Origin: Arthrobacter agilis
Lineage (GTDB): Bacteria > Actinomycetota > Actinomycetes > Actinomycetales > Micrococcaceae
Length of the DNA stretch: 33,797 nucleotides
Direction: 5' to 3'
NCBI RefSeq assembly: GCF_002953615.1
Contig: NZ_CP024915.1
Coordinates: forward strand, 2,441,045 to 2,474,841
A model generated the notes under the pieces. The model was not told the origin of the DNA. It made no database searches and was given only the letters and a program-made list of their open reading frames with translations. The position numbers were made by a program, and so were the translations under genes. This document shows, piece by piece, positions 3,024-27,195 of this stretch (the first letter of the stretch is position 1; the number at the start of each line of letters is the position of its first letter).

Positions 3024-4031
3024 TCACCTAGTGGCTTGGAGTCCTGTCAGGTGAGACGGCTTCGGTCGGGGTGGTGGTCCTGCAGGTTCTGCCATAGACG
3101 GGATTCGGTGCCGCCCATCGCCCTGGTCACTGACGGGTGCTTGTCCTTCGACATCGGTGAGCAGAGCGATGACGTCGGCGAGGGCGGGGGTGGCGGGGTC
3201 GTGCCAGATCAGTTCGAGGGGAGCCAGCAAGGGGGGCGCCACGGGGCGGACGACGATCCCGGGTACCGCTAAGTGCTCGGCCACCGCCGGTGCGACCGGT
3301 GCTACCCCATGGCCTGCGGCGACCACGCGAAGGAGGGCTTCAGGTGCATTGATGAGATTCGGCGGGGTGAGCACCTGGTCGGGACGGGACGGGCCCGCTG
3401 GGAGCAGGCGGGCGAGGAGGTAGTCGCAGATGCCGGGGAACTGATCGCGGGGGACCATCACGACCGTCTCCTCGGCGAGGTCGGTGACCGGGACGCTTTC
3501 CGCGGCGGCGAGCCGGTGCTCGGCCGACAGGGCCAGGTATACCGGCACGCGAGCCAGGAGCCGCCCCGGAAGGTCCTGGTCCTGCGCGCAGCGCACCCAG
3601 ACGATGGCGGCGTCGGTGTGCCCGTCCCGGACCGCGCGGACCGCGTCGCTGTCGGTGGCGGTCACAGCGGTGACCTCTAGCTCGGAGGCCGGCCCGGAGA
3701 GGCGGCCCAGGGGATCTTTCAGGATGTGTTCCACACCCGGGGCGACGCGCAGGCTGATATGCCGATGACGGCCGTCGGCGCAGCGGACTTCGGAGCGGGC
3801 ACGGTCGGCGCGGGCCAACAGGACGTGGGCGTGTTCGAGCAGCACCTCCCCGGCGGGGGTGAGGACCACACGGCGAGGGCTGCGCTCGAGCAGGGTGGCG
3901 TGCAGGTCCCGCTCCAGGACCTTGATCTGTTGGGACAGAGAAGGGGCAGCGATGCGCAGCCTGGCGGCTGCGCGCCCGAAGTGCCGTTCCTCGGCCACCG
4001 CCACGAAGTACCGCAGGTGTCGCAACTCCAT
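3024..4031 (-). CDS. LysR-type transcriptional regulator
   Basis: A 335-residue DNA-binding regulator starting at ATG 4031. Residues 1-60 form the typical LysR winged helix (MELRHLRYFVAVAEERHFGR, then SLSQQIKVLERDLHATLLER), followed by the linker helix ending LLARADRARSEV. Residues 90-290 are the periplasmic-binding-protein-like effector domain, with HRLAAAESVPVTDLAEETVV and a late LRVVAAGHGVAPVAP segment. The C-terminal 35 residues are proline- and basic-rich and beyond the normal family end. It diverges from the formaldehyde-dehydrogenase-type gene starting at 4206. LysR regulators often control the adjacent divergent operon, so control of the dehydrogenases and autoregulation is a reasonable inference. 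The inducer is unknown. Confidence 0.95.
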   Translation of the reverse strand: MELRHLRYFVAVAEERHFGRAAARLRIAAPSLSQQIKVLERDLHATLLERSPRRVVLTPAGEVLLEHAHVLLARADRARSEVRCADGRHRHISLRVAPGVEHILKDPLGRLSGPASELEVTAVTATDSDAVRAVRDGHTDAAIVWVRCAQDQDLPGRLLARVPVYLALSAEHRLAAAESVPVTDLAEETVVMVPRDQFPGICDYLLARLLPAGPSRPDQVLTPPNLINAPEALLRVVAAGHGVAPVAPAVAEHLAVPGIVVRPVAPPLLAPLELIWHDPATPALADVIALLTDVEGQAPVSDQGDGRHRIPSMAEPAGPPPRPKPSHLTGLQATR

Positions 4032-11117: not shown

Positions 11118-11828
11118 CTACTGACTTATTGCCCGCGTAAGTTCAGGTCCGTTATTGCGGACTGAGCCGACTTCTTTGCCAACGATCCGCGGGACAAGGT
11201 TGGGTTCGGGGACGGTGTCGATGAAGTGCTGCACCTGGTCCCGTTCCGTCATGGTCGAGTCCAGCCACTGATCCTGCAGATCCGCGGGGATGATGACCGG
11301 AGTCCGGTCGTGAATGTGCCCGAGCGCGTCATGCGCGGCCCGGGTGAGGATCGTCGCGGTCACCAGCTATTCGTCCTCGGCATCTTCAGCCTTGGTGGGG
11401 TTGGGCCAGAACTCGTACAGGCCGGCGAAGCCCAGCAACTGGTCCTCGTCCTTCCCGTGGAGGTAGTGCGGGGTCTTCCAACCATCCGTGTTCTTCTGCC
11501 ACTCGTAGTACCCGTTGGCTGGGATGAGGGCCCTGTGTTTGGCGGTCGCCGTGCGGAACGACGGCTTTTCCGTGACCGTCTCGCTGCGGGCGTTGATTAT
11601 CCTCGCCCCCACCTTTCGATCCTTGGACCACACGGGAACGAGTCCCCAGCGGGCTATCTCGAGGCGGCGCACCAGCTCGCCCTCGCGCAGCTGCTCGGAC
11701 ACGAACGGGATCCCCTGCATCGGAGCCACGTTCCACGACGGCTTCACCTCGTCCTGGAACGTCCCATCGATGCTGAAAGCCTCCCGGATAGCGGCCTTGT
11801 AGTCGGTGATGACGAACTGTGCGCACAT
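11118..11828 (-). pseudogene. SRAP family (SOS response-associated, YedK/HMCES) peptidase interrupted by a stop codon
   Basis: The gene starts at ATG 11828 so that the catalytic Cys2 follows directly (MCAQFV), as in all SRAP proteins. The first part contains PSWNVAPMQGIPFV, EIARWGLVPVW, INARSETV and the catalytic region LIPANGYYEWQ. An in-frame TAG at 11367-11369 stops it after residue 153. The same frame then continues LVTATILTRAAHDALGHIHD and RTPVIIP up to 11118, carrying the HxHDRxP motif with the conserved histidine. In family members a Trp often precedes L-V-T-x-T-I-L-T, so TGG to TAG is the simplest explanation. SRAP proteins crosslink to abasic sites in single-stranded DNA. The truncated product lacks an active-site histidine and is probably inactive. 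Confidence 0.85.
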
Positions 11829-12207
11829 GCCATTACTTTCCCGCTCCAGTAGGAACACCATCTGCTCCTACATTCCGTGGGTGGCAGGGCGGCGCGTCGA
11901 TACCCCTGGGCCGCTCCATGGTGTTACATGGGCTGTTATCGGCGTCAGATCATCCGGAGCAGGTCGCCCTCGCCGACATGTGGCATCCTCTGCCACCATT
12001 GGGGAGGCAGTTTGCAATACGGCTTCTGCGCACATTCGCCACTGATGGCATTCCAGTAGCACCACCAGTTCCGACGAGCAAAGCCGCCCGACTCGCGTTG
12101 TGTAAGGGGTACGAAAATGTGCGACCGCTCTCGCCCATGGAGCGACGGCGCCTTCGCCGTGATCCGCTCCATCTCCGGACGCATGTGACGGCTGCGGTGG
12201 CCCGGTG
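11829..12207. other. Intergenic stretch, one possible hairpin
   Basis: No gene is convincing. ACGGCG at 12145-12150 and CGCCGT around 12155-12160 form a compact stem with a 4-base loop, extended by GGAGCG and CGCTCC with a bulge. It lies about 40 bases before the DUF2256/DUF3253 gene, and its role is unknown. A short rightward frame through this region shows no recognisable protein. Confidence 0.3.
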
Positions 12208-12588
12208 ATGAGGTCGGCAGGTCCGGCGCACGAGCCCAAGTCCTGCCGCTCCTGCGGACGCCGCATCGAGTGGCGGAAGAAGTGGGAGCGGAACTGGGAG
12301 GACGTCGTCTACTGCAGCGACGCCTGCCGGTCCCGCAAGATCCGTGCCATCGATACCGCGCTCGAGGAGTGGCTGCTCGCGCGGCTCGACGCCGCAGCCC
12401 GCGGTTCGGGGATCGACCCGGCCGACGCCGCAGCGGCCTTCGGCGGTAGTGACTGCCCGCTGCATGAGCCTGCACGCAACGCTGCCCGCAGGCTCGTCGC
12501 CCGCGGACTCGCGGAGATGGTGCAGCGCGGCGCCGTCGTAGATCCTTCGACCGCCAAGGGATTCGTCACACTGCGCAGGCCCCGCTGA
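12208..12588 (+). CDS. DUF2256-DUF3253 fusion protein
   Basis: A 126-residue cytosolic protein. The N-terminal 45 residues are a DUF2256-type zinc-ribbon-like motif (CRSCGRRIEWRKKWERNW, then VVYCSDACRSRK), with cysteines in the pattern C-x2-C ... C-x3-C. The remainder is DUF3253, a winged-helix-like domain (ALEEWLLARLDAAARG, then SDCPLHEPARNAARRLVARG and VVDPSTAKGF). Both domains are of unknown function and are often adjacent or fused in actinobacteria and cyanobacteria. ATG 12208 is 7 bases after GGTGG; GTG 12205 directly before it is an alternative. It is intact although its neighbours on both sides are decayed. Confidence 0.88.
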   Translation: MRSAGPAHEPKSCRSCGRRIEWRKKWERNWEDVVYCSDACRSRKIRAIDTALEEWLLARLDAAARGSGIDPADAAAAFGGSDCPLHEPARNAARRLVARGLAEMVQRGAVVDPSTAKGFVTLRRPR

Positions 12589-13111
12589 TCCTGCTGACCC
12601 CGCTGAATGCATGACCCCGCTGACCGCACCGTGCGCGGGCAGGGTGTTCCGTCGTCGTCCGTGCTCGGCGCGCGGATGGCTCGAAGCGCTGGTGTTGTGG
12701 GTGGGCATCAACGCAATTCCTGATGCGCATGACACAGCCTTGTTCCCTGCGACCACGAAACGTCCACGCATACCGATCATTCTGCCCGTCTCTCGCCACA
12801 GCATCATCGGTGTGGTGAACTAAGGCTCCGCTGCGCCGACCTGTACGGATGCCTCCTCACGGGCCGGCGCAGCGCTACCATCGTCGTGAAGACCGAGAGC
12901 TGATTGGTTGTCAGATTGCTGCGCCTCCTGCCCCCAGGTGCACGGCACACACTTCCCCTCGCTCCGCTGCTTGTTCCACACACAGGGGGACAAGCAGGAA
13001 CCATCAGCCCGCCTGCACACACCCACCCGCGTCACCGACACCGGAGAACTCACCTCGAGTAAATGGTGGATGTGCACAGCCTCCTCATGCTGGGGTGCTA
13101 CGAAGGAAGCG
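12589..13111. other. Intergenic stretch without recognisable gene
   Basis: Overlapping short frames on both strands have no family resemblance and mixed codon use. A small imperfect repeat of GACCCCGCTGA occurs twice at about 12595-12622. Nothing else is supported. Confidence 0.35.
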
Positions 13112-13333
13112 CTATCGCGCCCGGACGCGGAAGTACCGGAAGCTAAAGATGTAGAGGCCAATGAGCAGAATGCTCCTGAGTACGAACCATGCACCGTCTC
13201 AGCTCAGCTCCACCTGACCAAGCAGTAACGCCAACACGGACAGCAAACCTAGAAACCCCGCTAGAACGATGGACACCCCAGCCATAACGCCAGCGAAGGT
13301 CTTGCTCATGGGCTTCATGACGTATTGGGTCAT
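13112..13333 (-). pseudogene. Possible two-helix small membrane protein with internal TGA
   Basis: From ATG 13333 the frame encodes 44 residues with a strong hydrophobic helix (GVMAGVSIVLAGFLGLLSVL, about residues 15-34) up to TGA 13199-13201. The same frame continues for 28 sense codons as DGAWFVLRSILLIGLYIFSF then RYFRVRAR, and stops at TAG 13112. The second part is also helix-like with a positively charged end, as expected for a second transmembrane segment. I infer a small two-helix protein interrupted by a nonsense mutation. There is no clear ribosome-binding site, so the call is tentative. Confidence 0.35.
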
Positions 13334-13447
13334 CAGCCCATTGAATCAGCCATGCCCCGCCGACACTTCAGACAGCTTTCCAAATAATCGAACCTGGGTT
13401 CTATTTCAAACCCTGCACAAGGGACGGCAGAGGATCAGGACGGCACG

Positions 13448-13830
13448 GAACGACGACAGCGCACCCAGCCGACACGACACACACCACGACCACAGGACAG
13501 GACGCACAGAGGCCTGAGGCGTCAGCCTGGCATGTGCTCGACGAGGTCGCTGACGTCCGGTTCCTGCCCTCGGGGTTGCCCTTGGCGCTGCGCTGGCGGG
13601 ACCGCCTGTGGCCGGTCATCGGCGACACCGATGTCATGGTCCAGCTCAAGCAGCTGGTGGGAACCCTCCACCACTCCCCCGGGCGGGCAAGGCGGGCAGG
13701 GCAGCATGCTCACGATAAGGTTTTGGCGGTTCCAGGCACAGACCAAGCCGGCGTCGCCTGGATCTCGGGGAGGGACAGTGTCTGGTTTGAGCCTTCGAGC
13801 CGCTTGAAGAGGAACTGGCAGGTGCCGCAC
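13448..13830 (+). pseudogene. Frameshifted DUF6504-like gene remnant
   Basis: Frame one contains DVRFLPSGLPLALRWRDRLW followed by PVIGDTDVM (13549-13640). The adjacent frame then gives WWEPSTTPP (13655-13681) and IRFWRFQAQT. The first frame resumes with DSVWFEPSSRLKRNWQV. The order W-R-x-R, then W-W-E, then F-W-R-F, then V-W-F-E, then W-x-V is that of short actinobacterial DUF6504-type proteins. The family is of unknown function and is sometimes found with error-prone polymerase genes. Two compensating shifts are needed, so the gene is broken. The family assignment is from motif order only. Confidence 0.42.
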
Positions 13831-16672: not shown

Positions 16673-16939
16673 GTGGGCGATGATCTGGACGTACCTCTGG
16701 GTGGACGGGAGCTGGTCCTGCACAACAGGTACGAGGTCCTGTCGATCGTGAACGACATCCTGGTCGCGCTCTGGTTCATCATCGGCAGCATCCTCTTCTT
16801 CCAGGAGAGCACCACGACGGCAGGGACCTGGCTGTTCCTGATCGGATCAATCGAACTCCTGATCCGACCAGTGATCCGCCTCTCCCGAAACGTCCATCTA
16901 CGCACGATCACCCGCACCAGGAACAGCAACGACTTCTGA
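16673..16939 (+). CDS. YrhK-like small membrane protein
   Basis: An 88-residue protein whose GTG start at 16673 lies 5 bases after AAAGGAGA, in the short gap following the DUF2254 stop. It has a polar N-terminus and the sequence NRYEVLSIVNDILVALWFII, then GSILFFQES and AGTWLFLIGSIELLIRPVIR, giving two transmembrane helices. This is the YrhK domain pattern of a two-helix hairpin with conserved R-Y-E and G-x-x-LF. Its function is unknown. Tight spacing implies co-expression with the DUF2254 protein, and the two may work as one membrane complex (inference). Confidence 0.82.
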   Translation: MGDDLDVPLGGRELVLHNRYEVLSIVNDILVALWFIIGSILFFQESTTTAGTWLFLIGSIELLIRPVIRLSRNVHLRTITRTRNSNDF

Positions 16940-17149
16940 TCCGACATCAACAGATCGTCTAGGACCTCTCGCGACTCTTCGAACACGTAGATGTGCTGGC
17001 CAGCTACCCCGCCCTTCCGGCAGAAGGTCAGGGCAAGCGGACGTCGTGGAAACACTCCGTGATGCCATGTTCTGATACGGGGTTCGACTGCCTTATGCTG
17101 ATGACTGGTCCTGCAAGCGGCCAACCGGTTTTCCGTTGATGGAGCCACC

Positions 17150-17488
17150 ATGTACGACCGCCTTATCACCCTGATCAGGGTCGACCTCGCGAATAACGAA
17201 GCAACGATCTCCGTTCGAGGCCGCTTCACCACCACGAACTACCGGGCCCTTGTGCCCCTCATACGGCGCGCCCGCGCTCTACCGGGCAACCCCATCGTCA
17301 CCATCGACATCGCGCGGGCGGCCACGGTGAAAGCTGACGCGACCCGCCTCCTCCTGGAGGCGTGCCACTCGGCTTCCCCGCACATCTCCACACACCAGAG
17401 CCAGCACAGCGCCCCGGCCCCGGTCCGCATCACGGGGAGCGCTGCCCTGTCTGACACCTCACGCGTAGCTTCACCCGTCGCCGCCTGA
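17150..17488 (+). CDS. STAS-like small protein
   Basis: A 112-residue protein starting at ATG 17150, with GGAG about 6 bases upstream. Residues 1-75 give the order strand (LITLIRVDLANNEATISVRG), helix (TNYRALVPLIRRARAL), strand (IVTIDIARA) and helix (KADATRLLLEACHS). This is how anti-sigma-factor-antagonist (STAS) domains are built. The serine normally phosphorylated at the start of the last helix appears to be replaced (TVKADATRLL). The last 35 residues are low-complexity and polar. It opens the signalling block that continues to 20093. No partner kinase is nearby, so a role is not assigned. Confidence 0.6.
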   Translation: MYDRLITLIRVDLANNEATISVRGRFTTTNYRALVPLIRRARALPGNPIVTIDIARAATVKADATRLLLEACHSASPHISTHQSQHSAPAPVRITGSAALSDTSRVASPVAA

Positions 17489-17685
17489 CAGTCCGAACAC
17501 CTTCTCCACACCACCGGCCTGTTCCCCCGCCGAACAGCAGCTGCAGGACTCCTGTCCCGCCTGTGCTGTCCGTCCGGGGCCCGGACTGTGCTGCTGAACA
17601 GCACCAGCTCGCCGTCATGCCGATCCTCGTCGCATGTGCCGGCACCTCCTCCCTCTCGCGTTTTCCCCTCTTTTCAGGAGTAGTT

Positions 17686-17925
17686 ATGAATTCTCGTCTT
17701 GTACCCACCAATTCTTTCCCCGAGGACCTCGCAGCACTTGAGGACATCGAGTTGCAGGTCCTGCACAGCAGGGTTCAGCGCCAGGTCGATCACGAATACA
17801 GTCACGAGTTCGGGCTGAACCCGGAAACCGAGTTCCGGGCAGCGGATGTTGCTGAGGAGTTCGAGCGCCGCGAGGCGCTGGCACCGTCGTGGGGTTCCCT
17901 GCTGCACTCGATGCTGCAGGCATGA
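17686..17925 (+). CDS. Small acidic protein translationally coupled to Hpt-like gene
   Basis: A 79-residue protein starting at ATG 17686, 7 bases after TCAGGAG. It is rich in Glu and Asp and predicted largely helical (FPEDLAALEDIELQVLHSRV, then FRAADVAEEFERRE). No membrane segment or known domain is seen. Its TGA overlaps the ATG of the next gene (ATGA at 17922), showing translational coupling. It may be an adaptor for the Hpt-like protein; that is a guess from context. Confidence 0.65.
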   Translation: MNSRLVPTNSFPEDLAALEDIELQVLHSRVQRQVDHEYSHEFGLNPETEFRAADVAEEFERREALAPSWGSLLHSMLQA

Positions 17926-18305
17926 GGGCCAACGGGGCACCTGATGTCCTTCCACACTTCGAGCACCGTGCCTTTGATGTCCTGGTAGCGGACCTGTCCC
18001 CGGCCGCCGCGACCTGCTTCGTCGCGGATTTCATCTCGATGCTTCCATCACGACTCGAGAGGATCACCGAGGCGCTGGCTGCAGGCAAGGACAGGGACGA
18101 GATGATCACGGCGTTGGCGAGCCTGGGAGTCAGCGCGAGCATGACCGGGGCGACGCGCCTGGCCCTGACCGTTGACACAGCGCTGGCTGATCTTTCCAGG
18201 GCCGCCCACCCCAGCACGTTGCTGCCAGTCCGGCTGCGGCGTGAGGCACAGCAGTTCGCATACGCCTATGCCTCGTTCCAGAAAGCGTCGTCACTGGCCG
18301 CATAA
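17922..18305 (+). CDS. Hpt-like helical-bundle protein lacking the phospho-accepting histidine
   Basis: A 127-residue protein starting at ATG 17922 in an ATGA overlap. The segment FVADFISMLPSRLERITEAL, then AAGKDRDEMITALASLGVSA and MTGATRLALTVDTAL, follows the helix order of histidine phosphotransfer domains (FL-x3-P-x-RL-x3-x-AL-x-AG, then the usual AH-x-LKGS-x-x-x-x-GA). At the expected phospho-histidine (about residue 66) the sequence has Ala, and the following Lys-Gly is Gly-Val. It therefore could not relay phosphate in the usual way and may act as a binding or inhibitory partner. The family assignment is by pattern only. It belongs with the GAF-ANTAR gene 108 bases downstream. Confidence 0.58.
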   Translation: MRANGAPDVLPHFEHRAFDVLVADLSPAAATCFVADFISMLPSRLERITEALAAGKDRDEMITALASLGVSASMTGATRLALTVDTALADLSRAAHPSTLLPVRLRREAQQFAYAYASFQKASSLAA

Positions 18306-18413
18306 GCCAGGCCAAACACGCACCTGCGGAGTCCTTGCCGCGGTCCGTGATGGGTCATTCACGTCCGGTCCCGTCAGGGTGCCGTAGCATTTCATAGGTT
18401 CATGAGGTGACCC

Positions 18414-19223
18414 ATGGTTCAGCATCGAGCCTTCCTCCGCCTCTTTTCATACGTGAATGAGGACTCAATGCCGGATGAGCAAGAACTGGCCCGTGAAGCT
18501 GAGCGGGACAGCGTCACAGCCCAGTTGCAGAACATGGTGCTCGAAAGCGATGACGTTCAGGAGTTCCTGAACGGACTGGTGTCCGTCGCAGCCCAGGCCT
18601 TCACTGGGCCCTACGGCGACGTGTTCTGCGGCATCACTCTCCTGCGCCCAAGGTCGATGGTGACAGTGGCTAGCAGCAGCGAGAAGGCCCGCCAGGTCGA
18701 TGAGGTGCAGTACGGGTTCGACGACGGGCCCTGCCTGCGTGCGGCCCGCGAAGGAATCACCGTCCACATTCGAGACTTCCTGACCGAGACCCGGTTCCCG
18801 GAGTACCGCGAAGCAATCGCCGGCCACGGGCTACGCTCAGCCCTGGGCATTCCCATCCGCCTCGACGAAGGAGCCAGCGCCGGCCTGGACTTCTACTCAA
18901 CCGAACCGAACACCTTCGACGCCAAAGGTATCCGCGTCGCCGAAGGATTCGCCCGTGACGCATCCCAGTCCCTCCGCCTCGCCGTGCGGGTAGCCAAGCT
19001 CACCGAAGCAAGCACGAACATGCGGGCCGCCATGGAATCTCGCACCAGCATCGATATGGCCATCGGGGCGATCATGGCCCAGAACCGGTGCGGCCAGGAA
19101 GAAGCCACCGCGATCCTGCGAAAAGCGTCCTCGAACCGGAACGTGAAGCTACGCGACTTATCCGCGGACATCCTGAACTCGATCGGACAGCACAAACCCG
19201 TCATCACGCACTTCGACAGCTGA
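18414..19223 (+). CDS. GAF-ANTAR domain regulator (RNA-binding antiterminator type)
   Basis: A 269-residue cytosolic protein. The GAF domain spans about residues 38-195 (VQEFLNGLVSVAAQAFTGPY, then VQYGFDDGPCLRAAREG and YREAIAGHGLRSALGIPI). The ANTAR three-helix domain spans about 210-262 (SRTSIDMAIGAIMAQNRCGQ, then EEATAILRKASSNRNVKLRD). ANTAR domains bind paired hairpins in nascent RNA and prevent termination, and the GAF domain senses a small molecule or redox state. ATG 18414 has GAGGTGA 3 bases before it; ATG 18468 with GAGG is a good alternative and would give 251 residues. No histidine kinase adjoins. Relics of two further ANTAR domains occur at 20448 and 24500. Confidence 0.93.
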   Translation: MVQHRAFLRLFSYVNEDSMPDEQELAREAERDSVTAQLQNMVLESDDVQEFLNGLVSVAAQAFTGPYGDVFCGITLLRPRSMVTVASSSEKARQVDEVQYGFDDGPCLRAAREGITVHIRDFLTETRFPEYREAIAGHGLRSALGIPIRLDEGASAGLDFYSTEPNTFDAKGIRVAEGFARDASQSLRLAVRVAKLTEASTNMRAAMESRTSIDMAIGAIMAQNRCGQEEATAILRKASSNRNVKLRDLSADILNSIGQHKPVITHFDS

Positions 19224-19316
19224 TCCTCGACACCGCGCCTCACCGTTCCAGCACGTGCCTGCACACACCCGCACCGGAACCCGACAACGATCAACGGTCG
19301 GCAGTGACGGCAAAGC

Positions 19317-20093
19317 TCAGGCGTTGATCTCGTCTTCGACGAGGCTGGCGAGTTTGCGCAGGAAACGGCCGTCCTGGGCCGAGAAACCACGCGGCTTCTG
19401 GTCAATGACGCACAGCGTTCCGACGGTCCAGCCCCCGGGCCCACGCAAGGGGTAGCCGGCGTAGAACCGGATGAAGGGCTCCCCCGTCACCAGGGGATTG
19501 GTCCTGAACCGGTCATCTTCACGGGCATCCGGAACGATCAACGGTCCAGCGTTACGGATCGTCGCGTTGCAGAACGTGATCTCCCGCGGCATGTTCTGCT
19601 CGATGGGCCCGATGACCGACTTCAGGAACAACCTGTGATCGTCGATCAGAGCCACGATCGATGAGCTGACGTTGAAATGGTCCCGGGCCTGCTGCGTGTA
19701 CCGGTCAAACCGCTCCTCGAACGGCGAGTCCACAAGATTCGTGCCAGCGACAGCATCAAGGCGTTCCTGCTCCGCCTCTTCCTCCGTAAACAAAAACACC
19801 CCCAGCGCCCCCAGCAACTTACGGGAGTCCTCCGGTGACTCTGCGGCCTCGTCGTCCTCGCTGCGGGGAACCTGGATGTCCACGGACGTGCCCTCAAGGA
19901 GCTCATTCATCGCATCCGCGAGAATGGTGCGCTCACTTCCCGACAAGATGAGCAGTCCCCCGAGATATGCCTCCACCTCGAACTCCGACACCTCACCACC
20001 CAGGGCGTAGTACTTCACCCACAGCTCACCGACCGAGATGTTTGCGCTGGACAGGGCAAGGGCAGTGAGCCTGATCTGCGTTCGGCCGTTCAT
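19317..20093 (-). CDS. GAF domain sensor protein
   Basis: A 258-residue soluble protein. ATG 20093 is preferred to the longer frame (20249) because GGAGG precedes it by 4 bases and the upstream extension is not conserved-looking. The N-terminal 70 residues (TALALSSANISVGELWVKYY, then GGEVSEFEVEAYLGGLLIL) form a small helical unit common in Arthrobacter relatives as a stand-alone or N-terminal module. An acidic linker (about 78-90) follows. Residues about 105-255 are a GAF domain (DHFNVSSSIVALIDDHRLFL, then PREITFCNATIRNAGPLIVP and YPLRGPGGWTVGTLCVIDQK). No output domain follows, so it probably signals by protein contact. It converges on the GAF-ANTAR gene 94 bases away. Confidence 0.88.
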   Translation of the reverse strand: MNGRTQIRLTALALSSANISVGELWVKYYALGGEVSEFEVEAYLGGLLILSGSERTILADAMNELLEGTSVDIQVPRSEDDEAAESPEDSRKLLGALGVFLFTEEEAEQERLDAVAGTNLVDSPFEERFDRYTQQARDHFNVSSSIVALIDDHRLFLKSVIGPIEQNMPREITFCNATIRNAGPLIVPDAREDDRFRTNPLVTGEPFIRFYAGYPLRGPGGWTVGTLCVIDQKPRGFSAQDGRFLRKLASLVEDEINA

Positions 20094-20447
20094 AGGACCT
20101 CCGATCCCGCCCATCCTCGCGAACCTGAACCAACAACCCGAGGCGACAGTGAGATGAAGCCGAACCAGGGACTGCGGTAACGCACACAACCAATTATCAG
20201 CCTGCTTAGTTTTCCAAGGATAGTGCAGTATCCGGCTCGCACGAAACAATCACCCATATGACCAGAGGCGCTGACCGCTAAGGACGGCAGGCGTGTCGGA
20301 TGTGGCATTGGAGCCGGAATCGCTCGGCAAAAGCAATGACGCGCGAGTCCTGCGGCCCCGCCTCGCGGCGACCAACGCTGACGGCGGACACACGGCGGGT
20401 ACTTGAGGATCCTACGGGCCGTCATCACATGTCGGCCGCGCGTTCGG
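20094..20447. other. Non-coding stretch upstream of the GAF gene
   Basis: No gene is seen. It holds the presumed promoter of the leftward GAF gene. An A/T-rich patch at about 20195-20235 is the most promoter-like part, but I cannot assign boxes. Confidence 0.3.
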
Positions 20448-26715: not shown

Positions 26716-27195
26716 ATGCCATCATCCAGTGAGGAAGACCCAGTGATCAAGGCCTACACGTTCGACGACCGATTCGACGTCGTCCGCTTCGAGCGTTGCG
26801 CTGTCTCCGTGCGCGCCAGGACGAACGTCGTCATCTCCGAGGTAGATGCTCTGATGATCCTGCGGCGATGCTTCGAGCTGACGGACAACCGGCAGTACGT
26901 CGTCCTCCTGACGGTCGCCAACATCATGGGTGTAAGTGCTGGTGCCCGCCGTGTCCTGTCCTCGTCCCGCAACGTTCTTGCTGCAGCGCTGTTCGGCCAG
27001 GGTGCCATGGATGAGGTTCTCGCCGCTCCCTATCTGCGGGCCGTGTATCCGGGCGAGTACTTCACCGAGGAAGCCAGCGCCCTGCGGTGGCTGGCCATGA
27101 TGCACGATCTCGTATGCGCTGACCCTGTCCCCCATGCCCTGAGTCTTACCGTGGACCTGGACCCGTTCCGCCCACGGAAGCCACGAGTAGCCTGA
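26716..27195 (+). CDS. STAS/SpoIIAA-like small protein (DUF7793 type), second copy
   Basis: A soluble protein of 159 residues from ATG 26716; GTG 26743 with GAGGAAG upstream is a good alternative and would give 150 residues. The layout matches the 2477-2893 protein: N-terminal beta pair (DDRFDVVRFERCAVSVRART), helix after VVISEVDALMILRRCFELTD, central strand YVVLLTVAN, helix VSAGARRVLSSSRNVLAAAL and the terminal GEYFTEEASALRWLAMMHD. It ends in a basic/proline tail. The role is unknown. No kinase or sigma factor gene adjoins it. Confidence 0.68.
   Translation: MPSSSEEDPVIKAYTFDDRFDVVRFERCAVSVRARTNVVISEVDALMILRRCFELTDNRQYVVLLTVANIMGVSAGARRVLSSSRNVLAAALFGQGAMDEVLAAPYLRAVYPGEYFTEEASALRWLAMMHDLVCADPVPHALSLTVDLDPFRPRKPRVA

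Follow-up and report, generated by a model that had tools for sequence, protein, structure and literature searches.

A locus of Arthrobacter agilis raises the question of whether a regulator of the GAF-ANTAR type may be gated by small proteins encoded beside it. We examined this locus within a window of 33,797 nucleotides, which is the whole stretch of DNA that was analyzed. Five small regulator genes (STAS-like, acidic, Hpt-like, GAF-ANTAR and convergent GAF) are found at 17150-20093, and a check of the ORF positions confirmed the five adjacent regulators of the preliminary description. The features of the block are as follows.

17090..17149, + strand: conserved noncoding stretch before the STAS-like gene, with TTATGCT and CTGGTCCTGCAAGCGGCCA (alignment of three blocks)
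17150..17488, + strand: STAS-like protein P0001, 112 aa (ORF; weak STAS/STAS_2 matches in relatives)
17686..17925, + strand: acidic protein P0003, 79 aa (ORF; predicted helical-hairpin family)
17922..18305, + strand: Hpt-like protein P0004, 127 aa, without the phospho-histidine (ORF; profile and structure model)
18117..18119, + strand: Ala66 codon, corresponding to the phosphorylated histidine of Hpt domains (profile alignment to 3myf and 7c1i; family alignment)
18468..19223, + strand: GAF-ANTAR protein P0002, 251 aa, or 269 aa if the start is at 18414 (Pfam ANTAR and GAF_2)
19317..20093, - strand: GAF protein P0005, 258 aa, convergent with the GAF-ANTAR gene (Pfam GAF)

Organization and conservation of the block

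The start of P0004 overlaps the stop of P0003 by ATGA. This overlap, described earlier as translational coupling of the two genes, was kept in all three orthologous blocks (genomes G000, G019 and G032). For the GAF-ANTAR gene, the start at 18468 is more likely than that at 18414 because the ORFs of two relatives (L104 and L105) begin there. Among the 32 window proteins scanned, no kinase or receiver domain was found, nor was an anti-sigma kinase.

Over the three orthologous blocks, the five genes showed amino acid identities of 59-92% and dN/dS values of 0.05-0.38. The values were 0.27-0.38 for the STAS-like P0001, 0.09-0.24 for the acidic P0003, 0.19-0.26 for the Hpt-like P0004, 0.05-0.09 for the GAF-ANTAR protein P0002 and 0.07-0.08 for the GAF protein P0005. 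These values indicate purifying selection on each of the five, which behave as real genes. The complete five-gene block was rare, being present in 3 of the 38 genomes of the genus, and the idea of the five genes as one set is not supported in its original form. A GAF-ANTAR and GAF pair without the three small genes occurs elsewhere in the same genome, and an A. agilis plasmid carries such a pair with only a 57-codon Hpt-like piece upstream. The acidic, Hpt-like and ANTAR genes also occur singly, scattered over the genomes, and several relatives sit on plasmids or small contigs. The search for co-occurrence across relatives thus gave a divided answer, as the pairing of the acidic and Hpt-like genes and the proximity of acidic and ANTAR genes exceeded chance (see below) but the whole set was rare. 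Two findings had been named as evidence against the preliminary description, rare co-occurrence of the five genes and a fold other than a four-helix Hpt bundle for the 127-residue protein; with the complete set in 3 of 38 genomes, one half of this evidence was found.

Predicted fold and histidine site of the Hpt-like protein

P0004 matched the Pfam Hpt domain (PF01627) with an E value of 4.4e-4 and 20.9 bits, against a cutoff of 24.6. Ten of 16 members of its family matched this domain at an E value of ≤0.01, and one paralogue in the same genome exceeded the cutoff, with 35.1 bits. The structure of P0004 was predicted by AlphaFold2 with an alignment of three sequences (pLDDT, 85.9; pTM, 0.79), and the model had helices at residues 15-25, 27-54, 58-75, 78-92 and 101-126. 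In a structural comparison, the first 24 rows were Hpt proteins, with Z from 15.5 down to 11.4 and a value of ≥13.1 in 12 rows; unrelated bundles appeared at Z 10.6 and lower, with three further Hpt-type rows (Z 9.5-10.0) mixed among them. Foldseek likewise ranked Hpts first, with a best E value of 4.7e-3 and none at ≤0.001. According to the model, P0004 is an Hpt four-helix bundle, as had been proposed for the 127-residue protein.

Compared with the Hpt domains of Pseudomonas aeruginosa HptB (7c1i) and Shewanella (3myf), P0004 is alike in fold, helix order and sequence register, whereas the phospho-histidine is replaced by alanine (by leucine in most family rows). Both the profile alignment to 3myf and 7c1i and the family alignment placed Ala66 at this position, in agreement with the earlier observation that the histidine is missing. 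Since P0004 has no phosphorylatable histidine in helix C, it was classified as an Hpt-fold relative and not as a phosphotransfer protein. Across the family, the site was Leu in 57, His in 6 and another residue in 9 of 72 rows, an alignment that includes some genes fetched twice. The six histidine-bearing rows represent five distinct genes, one of which is in this genome (G000:C1:3450573); in a smaller set of relatives, none of 35 sequences had the histidine. The three block orthologues have Ala, Ser and Leu at the site, and therefore no particular residue is kept in the block.

Pairing of the acidic and Hpt-like genes

The acidic protein P0003 had no Pfam match, and no credible Pfam or PDB sequence match was found for its family, which is present in all 38 genomes of the genus. 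Acidic and Hpt-like genes were adjacent eight times in these genomes, against 0.21 expected, and chance was rejected as the cause of the pairing. The eight pairs are not independent: the MN05-02 plasmid carries three of them, A. cheniae has two, and the remaining three are orthologues of one another. All eight pairs have the same strand and the same order. Most copies of either gene are unpaired, with 121 of 129 acidic places not adjoining an Hpt-like gene and 81 of 89 Hpt-like places not adjoining an acidic gene.

One pair on the MN05-02 plasmid overlaps by 4 nt, and in A. cheniae the acidic and Hpt-like genes share one open frame twice. The second of these frames (L109) lacks an ATG where the start would normally be; it is therefore regarded as a continuous frame, with fusion unproven. 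In a model of the fused A. cheniae protein, the acidic half was a confident hairpin (mean pLDDT of 83-93 in blocks of residues 11-60). The Hpt half was weak (pLDDT of about 51-73 at residues 101-210) because MAFFT did not align the stand-alone Hpt sequences with the fused protein. The halves were not docked confidently (pTM, 0.41). Eight Hpt rows came first among the structural matches of the fused protein, with unrelated bundles tied in Z, and the claim on the fold is therefore drawn from the P0004 model. The coupling and the fusion suggest that the acidic and Hpt-like proteins form one complex.

Association with GAF-ANTAR and GAF genes

In Pfam searches, P0002 matched ANTAR (PF03861) at residues 202-254 with 57.5 bits (cutoff, 27.3) and GAF_2 with 44.9 bits, over the cutoff, and P0005 matched GAF with 50.3 bits, also over the cutoff. 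An ANTAR gene was present in the fetched flank of 9 of 45 acidic loci (one of them, L128, with a 43-codon ANTAR fragment only), against 2.1 expected from the ANTAR density of the own genome for 37 loci and from the mean density for 8; the other 36 loci had none there. In eight nonredundant loci, the acidic gene was upstream of and codirectional with a GAF-ANTAR gene within 1.5 kb, and at one locus the ends of the two genes overlapped. Six of the eight acidic/Hpt-like pairs had an ANTAR gene within 1.5 kb, which in one of the six is only a 43-codon fragment; it was absent within this distance from two pairs (MN05-02 at 3546 and G007:C19). The number of ANTAR genes per genome varied from 2 to 40 in the 38 Arthrobacter genomes. 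It was correlated with the number of Hpt-like genes (Spearman 0.51, P = 0.001) and more weakly with that of acidic genes (Spearman 0.37, P = 0.02).

The first ~75 residues of P0005, named P5N, have relatives that are also found as stand-alone small proteins beside other ANTAR genes, and no credible Pfam match was found for this domain. After removal of six duplicate loci, P5N was within 1 kb of an ANTAR gene in 20 of 28 ORFs, a proportion biased by loci mostly picked for acidic, Hpt-like or ANTAR matches; three of those 20 are codirectional with the ANTAR gene and share 1 nt with it. At the level of gene neighborhood, the linkage of the genes of the block is well supported.

STAS-like protein, leader region and RNA targets

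P0001 itself matched neither STAS family (PF01740 or PF13466), and its best Pfam matches were weak and unrelated (E = 0.013). STAS or STAS_2 was found in 6 of 10 relatives, at E values of 0.0034-0.14 that were all under the cutoff; one of these relatives is the 77%-identical orthologue L082. Unrelated families reached E values of this order in the relatives of P0001. The similarity to SpoIIAA-type anti-sigma-factor antagonists is thus a weak profile similarity of relatives, whereas P0001 is below every cutoff and lacks the usual serine. In STAS proteins, the phosphorylatable serine sits in a DSSG-type motif. P0001 reads VKADA at this site, without a serine, and a serine is second after an acidic residue in 2 of 22 readable rows of the family alignment (L086 and L099), both readings being by eye with uncertain register. 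The STAS assignment of P0001 is weak. The missing serine reported earlier was seen again, but in a protein whose domain call is itself weak. The claim that both phosphorylation sites were lost has to be toned down, as the Hpt-like family keeps a few histidine members and the STAS homology is weak.

In the alignment of three blocks, 51 of the 60 columns before the STAS-like start codon were invariant, whereas the 60 columns directly upstream of these included 30 invariant ones. Within 17090..17149, TTATGCT resembles a -10 element by eye, and a related copy of the leader precedes the MN05-02 plasmid block. This conserved stretch is probably the promoter or leader of the block, as judged from its conservation. 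A scan with the sigma-70 consensus found no promoter in 16900-20300. The leader was present in 13 of 209 fetched loci, all of them copies of the three blocks. Sixteen of its bases were also found in 31 stretches of viral contigs; these were judged to be chance matches and have no flanking sequence in common with the block.

The ANTAR hexaloop pattern was absent from the conserved leader by eye, and Rfam gave no match in the window at the gathering threshold. A double-hexaloop scan gave one match in the 33.8 kb (13600-13636, minus strand), which is not above chance, as mononucleotide shuffles averaged 0.7. ANTAR target RNAs may be located elsewhere in the genome.

A possible mode of action and its alternatives

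We tentatively favor, with some doubt, a signaling module around the GAF-ANTAR protein in which an acidic/pseudo-Hpt complex gates the antiterminator without phosphate transfer. The acidic helical-hairpin protein and the histidine-less Hpt-like protein would be made together and form one complex, which would bind the GAF-ANTAR protein and either hold or release it without phosphate transfer. Binding of the ANTAR domain to its RNA targets would thereby be limited to the right condition. Both the ANTAR protein and the convergent GAF protein could act as sensors, through ligands bound by their GAF domains, and P5N might serve as an ANTAR companion elsewhere. The logic would be that of AmiC-AmiR and NasS-NasT, with the Hpt-fold protein and the acidic hairpin in the partner's role.

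The Hpt-like protein could instead be a decoy that docks on a receiver encoded elsewhere and blocks a real phosphorelay, in the way of plant AHP6, a pseudo-Hpt without the histidine that acts as an inhibitor; the acidic protein would then tune or recruit it, and the ANTAR gene would be a mere neighbor. P0004 keeps the Hpt shape, AHP6 offers a precedent, and an OmpR-type response regulator gene was found tail to tail in the 1.5-kb flank at 23 of 35 Hpt-like family loci, the one flanking response regulator tested having receiver and DNA-binding domain matches. These 23 loci, however, probably derive from a chromosomal gene or two and do not count as independent cases. Four paired loci (L009, L053, L054 and L056, with one response-regulator query) are without such a neighbor, two other relatives come after a gene for a BldC-like HTH protein, and the scanned window proteins include no receiver domain. 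We consider a decoy rather unlikely. The term "kinase-less" used earlier for the block stands for the scanned window proteins, but a response regulator gene adjoins those 23 loci of the family.

We also think it improbable that the five genes are plasmid or island cargo traveling together without one function, with the small proteins lineage specific and acting on separate targets. The location of several relatives on plasmids or small contigs, the rarity of the full set and the scattered single genes would fit such cargo, but the eight ordered pairs (which are not independent), the two shared frames, the kept overlap and the purifying selection argue against it. Far less probable still is a continued role of the Hpt-like protein in phosphotransfer, via another residue or only through histidine-bearing paralogues forming mixed dimers with the histidine-less ones. 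Such paralogues exist, including the one in this genome, but leucine at the site in most rows seems to have been retained and not to be a product of drift, and the histidine is absent from all eight paired copies.

A two-gene operon beside an RNA-binding regulator, with parts recurring in relatives, suggests an undescribed switch that would work without phosphorylation. More broadly, these genes could belong to an undescribed class of Micrococcaceae switches, in which widespread Hpt-fold proteins with leucine or another residue in place of the histidine would be plain docking modules. In complex with a new family of acidic hairpins, such a module would gate the RNA antiterminator here, and other copies would work with a response regulator or one of the BldC type; such a class is conceivable, although we think it unlikely. 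No description of such a module was found in the openly accessible literature of PMC. The block names concrete candidate partners for GAF-ANTAR proteins, two of which (the acidic family and the P5N domain) are without a credible Pfam match. The large, mostly histidine-less Hpt family, with its copy here under purifying selection, makes bacterial nonphosphorylating Hpt docking modules testable.

Comparison with known systems

AHP6 resembles P0004 as an Hpt relative without the histidine but differs from the block in being eukaryotic, in acting in cytokinin signaling and in not being known to have an acidic partner or ANTAR. In the mycobacterial PdtaS-PdtaR system, an ANTAR response regulator of actinobacteria works in one circuit with a sensor that has GAF (PMC8131098). 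PdtaR is controlled by a histidine kinase and a competing RNA. It shares with the block an actinobacterial ANTAR regulator and GAF, whereas its kinase control contrasts with the 32 scanned window proteins, in which no kinase or receiver was found. Ligand-released ANTAR partners have a precedent, and the known partners in AmiC-AmiR and NasS-NasT are ligand-binding proteins (PMC3795266). In common with these systems, the block has the gene of a presumed partner adjacent to that of an RNA-binding ANTAR protein, and the scanned neighbors include no kinase. Judged by neighborhood, the acidic gene is a candidate for this partner in eight nonredundant loci. In contrast to AmiC-AmiR and NasS-NasT, the candidate partner in the block would be an acidic hairpin together with a histidine-less Hpt, and the ANTAR domain is joined to GAF.

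Composition and recurrence of the block

The window occupies positions 2441045 to 2474841 of a single 3.48-Mb contig, and the five regulator ORFs of the preliminary description were all present there as described. In Pfam searches, the GAF-ANTAR protein (P0002) gave ANTAR and GAF matches above the cut-off, as did the convergent GAF protein (P0005) for GAF. The Hpt match of the Hpt-like protein (P0004) was below the cut-off, the STAS-like protein (P0001) had no credible match, and the acidic protein (P0003) had no match at all. A search against NCBIfam returned nothing useful.

Orthologous five-gene blocks, with the same order and relative orientation as in the window, were found in Arthrobacter sp. 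Leaf234 (G019, 43-kb contig) and in genome G032 (180-kb contig). The five genes are under purifying selection, with dN/dS values of 0.05 to 0.38 across the three blocks, all of which preserve the ATGA overlap between the acidic and Hpt-like genes. Before the start codon of the STAS-like gene (17090-17149), 51 of 60 alignment columns were invariant across the three blocks, compared with 30 of 60 in the preceding stretch; a related copy lies on the MN05-02 plasmid (L107).

Elsewhere in the window, an SRAP (SOS-response peptidase) gene at 11118-11861 is broken into two ORFs. Two pieces similar to A. agilis plasmid pAAG24-152 lie within 11146-13744, and this region may therefore be plasmid related. 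Two DUF7793 proteins are encoded at 2528-2893 and 26716-27195, and a protein similar to them by eye adjoins the MN05-02 plasmid block (L107, 13033-14271).

Some acidic and Hpt-like genes form shared coding units

Among the 38 genus genomes, the acidic and Hpt-like genes were within 1 kb of each other in 8 cases, against 0.21 expected, always on the same strand and with the acidic gene first. Two such pairs in A. cheniae each lie in one open frame: one is a clear fusion of 214 amino acids (L106/L128), and the other is a common frame without an ATG at the usual start (L109). The MN05-02 plasmid (AP018698.1) carries three pairs; in one of them the two genes overlap by 4 nt, and a GAF-ANTAR-like gene comes next.

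Every one of the 38 genus genomes carries the acidic family, which has 129 places among them; at the family level, it is present in 32 of 197 genomes and 7 of 32 genera. Eighteen members gave only stray weak matches to Pfam and none to PDB sequences at an E value of 5. In a model of the fused relative, the conserved part of the acidic protein is a predicted helical hairpin (residues 20-40 and 46 onward; block pLDDT mostly 83-93). One contig encoding an Arthrobacter-type acidic protein (WNZI01000053.1, L141) is labelled Vibrio cholerae strain 35D; this record looks mislabelled or contaminated.

Acidic genes are also linked to ANTAR genes. Within flanks of up to 6 kb on either side, ANTAR was found at 9 of 45 named acidic loci (2.1 expected; P = 1.6e-4). 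The acidic gene lies upstream of a codirectional ANTAR gene, within 1.5 kb, at eight nonredundant loci, with an Hpt-like gene in between at four (the window, L127, L105, and L123). Relatives of the N-terminal domain of P0005 (P5N, about 75 residues) occur as small ORFs directly 3' of ANTAR genes; ANTAR was within 1 kb of 20 of 28 P5N ORFs. Three overlap the end of the ANTAR gene by 1 nt:

L105, 9280-9669: P5N-related small ORF
L112, 3863-4306: P5N-related small ORF
L129, 7494-7754: P5N-related small ORF

These three proteins (that of L129 as its L110 copy) had no Pfam match, and six small P5N proteins had no credible one.

P0004 has a predicted Hpt fold and lacks the phospho-histidine

With a 16-member Hpt-like profile, the best two matches were solved Hpt domains with the Hpt site aligned, at weak E values of 0.12 and 0.37; the next two were ubiquitins. 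The AlphaFold2 model of P0004, built from three sequences only, has five helices (pLDDT, 85.9; pTM, 0.79). In a structural comparison, the top 24 matches had Z scores of 15.5 to 11.4, and 23 of their titles referred to Hpts, to histidine phosphotransfer proteins, or to Ypd1, the Hpt of yeast; the title of 4euk was uninformative. Z scores below about 13 can reflect helical arrangement alone; 12 of the Hpt matches had a Z score of at least 13.1. The following match was unrelated (Z, 10.6), and three further Hpt-type matches lay below it (Z, 10.0 to 9.5). Hpts also ranked first in Foldseek, but at a best E value no lower than 4.7e-3.

The claimed loss of the phospho-histidine was borne out: P0004 has Ala66 at this site. 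Across 72 family rows, the site is Leu in 57, His in 6 (representing five genes), Ser in 2, Val in 2, and Ala, Met, Phe, Arg, or Gln in 1 each; the three block orthologues have Ala, Ser, and Leu. A search with P0004 recovered the family from 30 of 38 genus genomes, and a search with the profile recovered it from 91 of 197 family genomes, spread over 16 of 32 genera. At 23 of 35 loci across the genus (L012 and L060-L081, probably few independent cases), an OmpR-type response regulator gene lies tail to tail with a mostly His-less Hpt-like gene. At two loci of the window's own genome (L010 and L013), a small BldC-like HTH gene is just upstream of an Hpt-like paralogue; the paralogue in L013 retains the histidine.

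The small genes appear to be optional additions to an ANTAR-GAF pair

The proposed co-occurrence of the five genes held only in part: the arrangement is real and partly recurring, but the full set was present in 3 of 38 genus genomes. A second GAF-ANTAR/GAF pair in the window's own genome is 78% identical in DNA, and none of the three small genes was found in the stretch read near it. On pAAG24-152, an ANTAR-GAF pair has a 57-codon Hpt-like piece upstream. The MN05-02 block is without the Hpt-like gene, whose position is occupied by a second acidic gene, and has a stop inside the STAS-like match. Conversely, ANTAR was absent within 1.5 kb at 2 of 8 acidic/Hpt-like pairs. The rarity of the full set, the ANTAR-GAF pairs without small genes, and the pairs without ANTAR suggest that the small genes are optional additions to an ANTAR-GAF pair that can stand apart from them.

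The part of the STAS-like protein is the least certain. Seventeen of the 38 genus genomes encode relatives of P0001, and 6 of 10 relatives matched STAS or STAS_2 at E values of 0.0034 to 0.14, all below the cut-off and similar to those of unrelated families. The usual serine, described as lost, is indeed missing by eye, but the STAS assignment itself is no more than likely.

Proposed mechanism and known analogues

The output domain of this arrangement is known, and its candidate partner is unusual. The acidic and Hpt-like proteins may form one complex that would act on the GAF-ANTAR protein, and a ligand could be sensed by the GAF domains. No ANTAR target RNA above chance was found within the window. 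According to a survey of ANTAR RNAs, genera including Arthrobacter have nearly 10, and even up to 36, predicted ANTAR target RNAs per genome (PMC8164766); the targets are therefore probably elsewhere in the genome. Our search of the open PMC literature found no published description of this arrangement.

The closest working analogues of the proposed module are AmiC-AmiR and NasS-NasT, in which a partner retains the ANTAR protein and a ligand frees it (PMC3795266). If the proposal is true, the module would be a new variant of such partner-controlled antitermination, rather than a proven new class.
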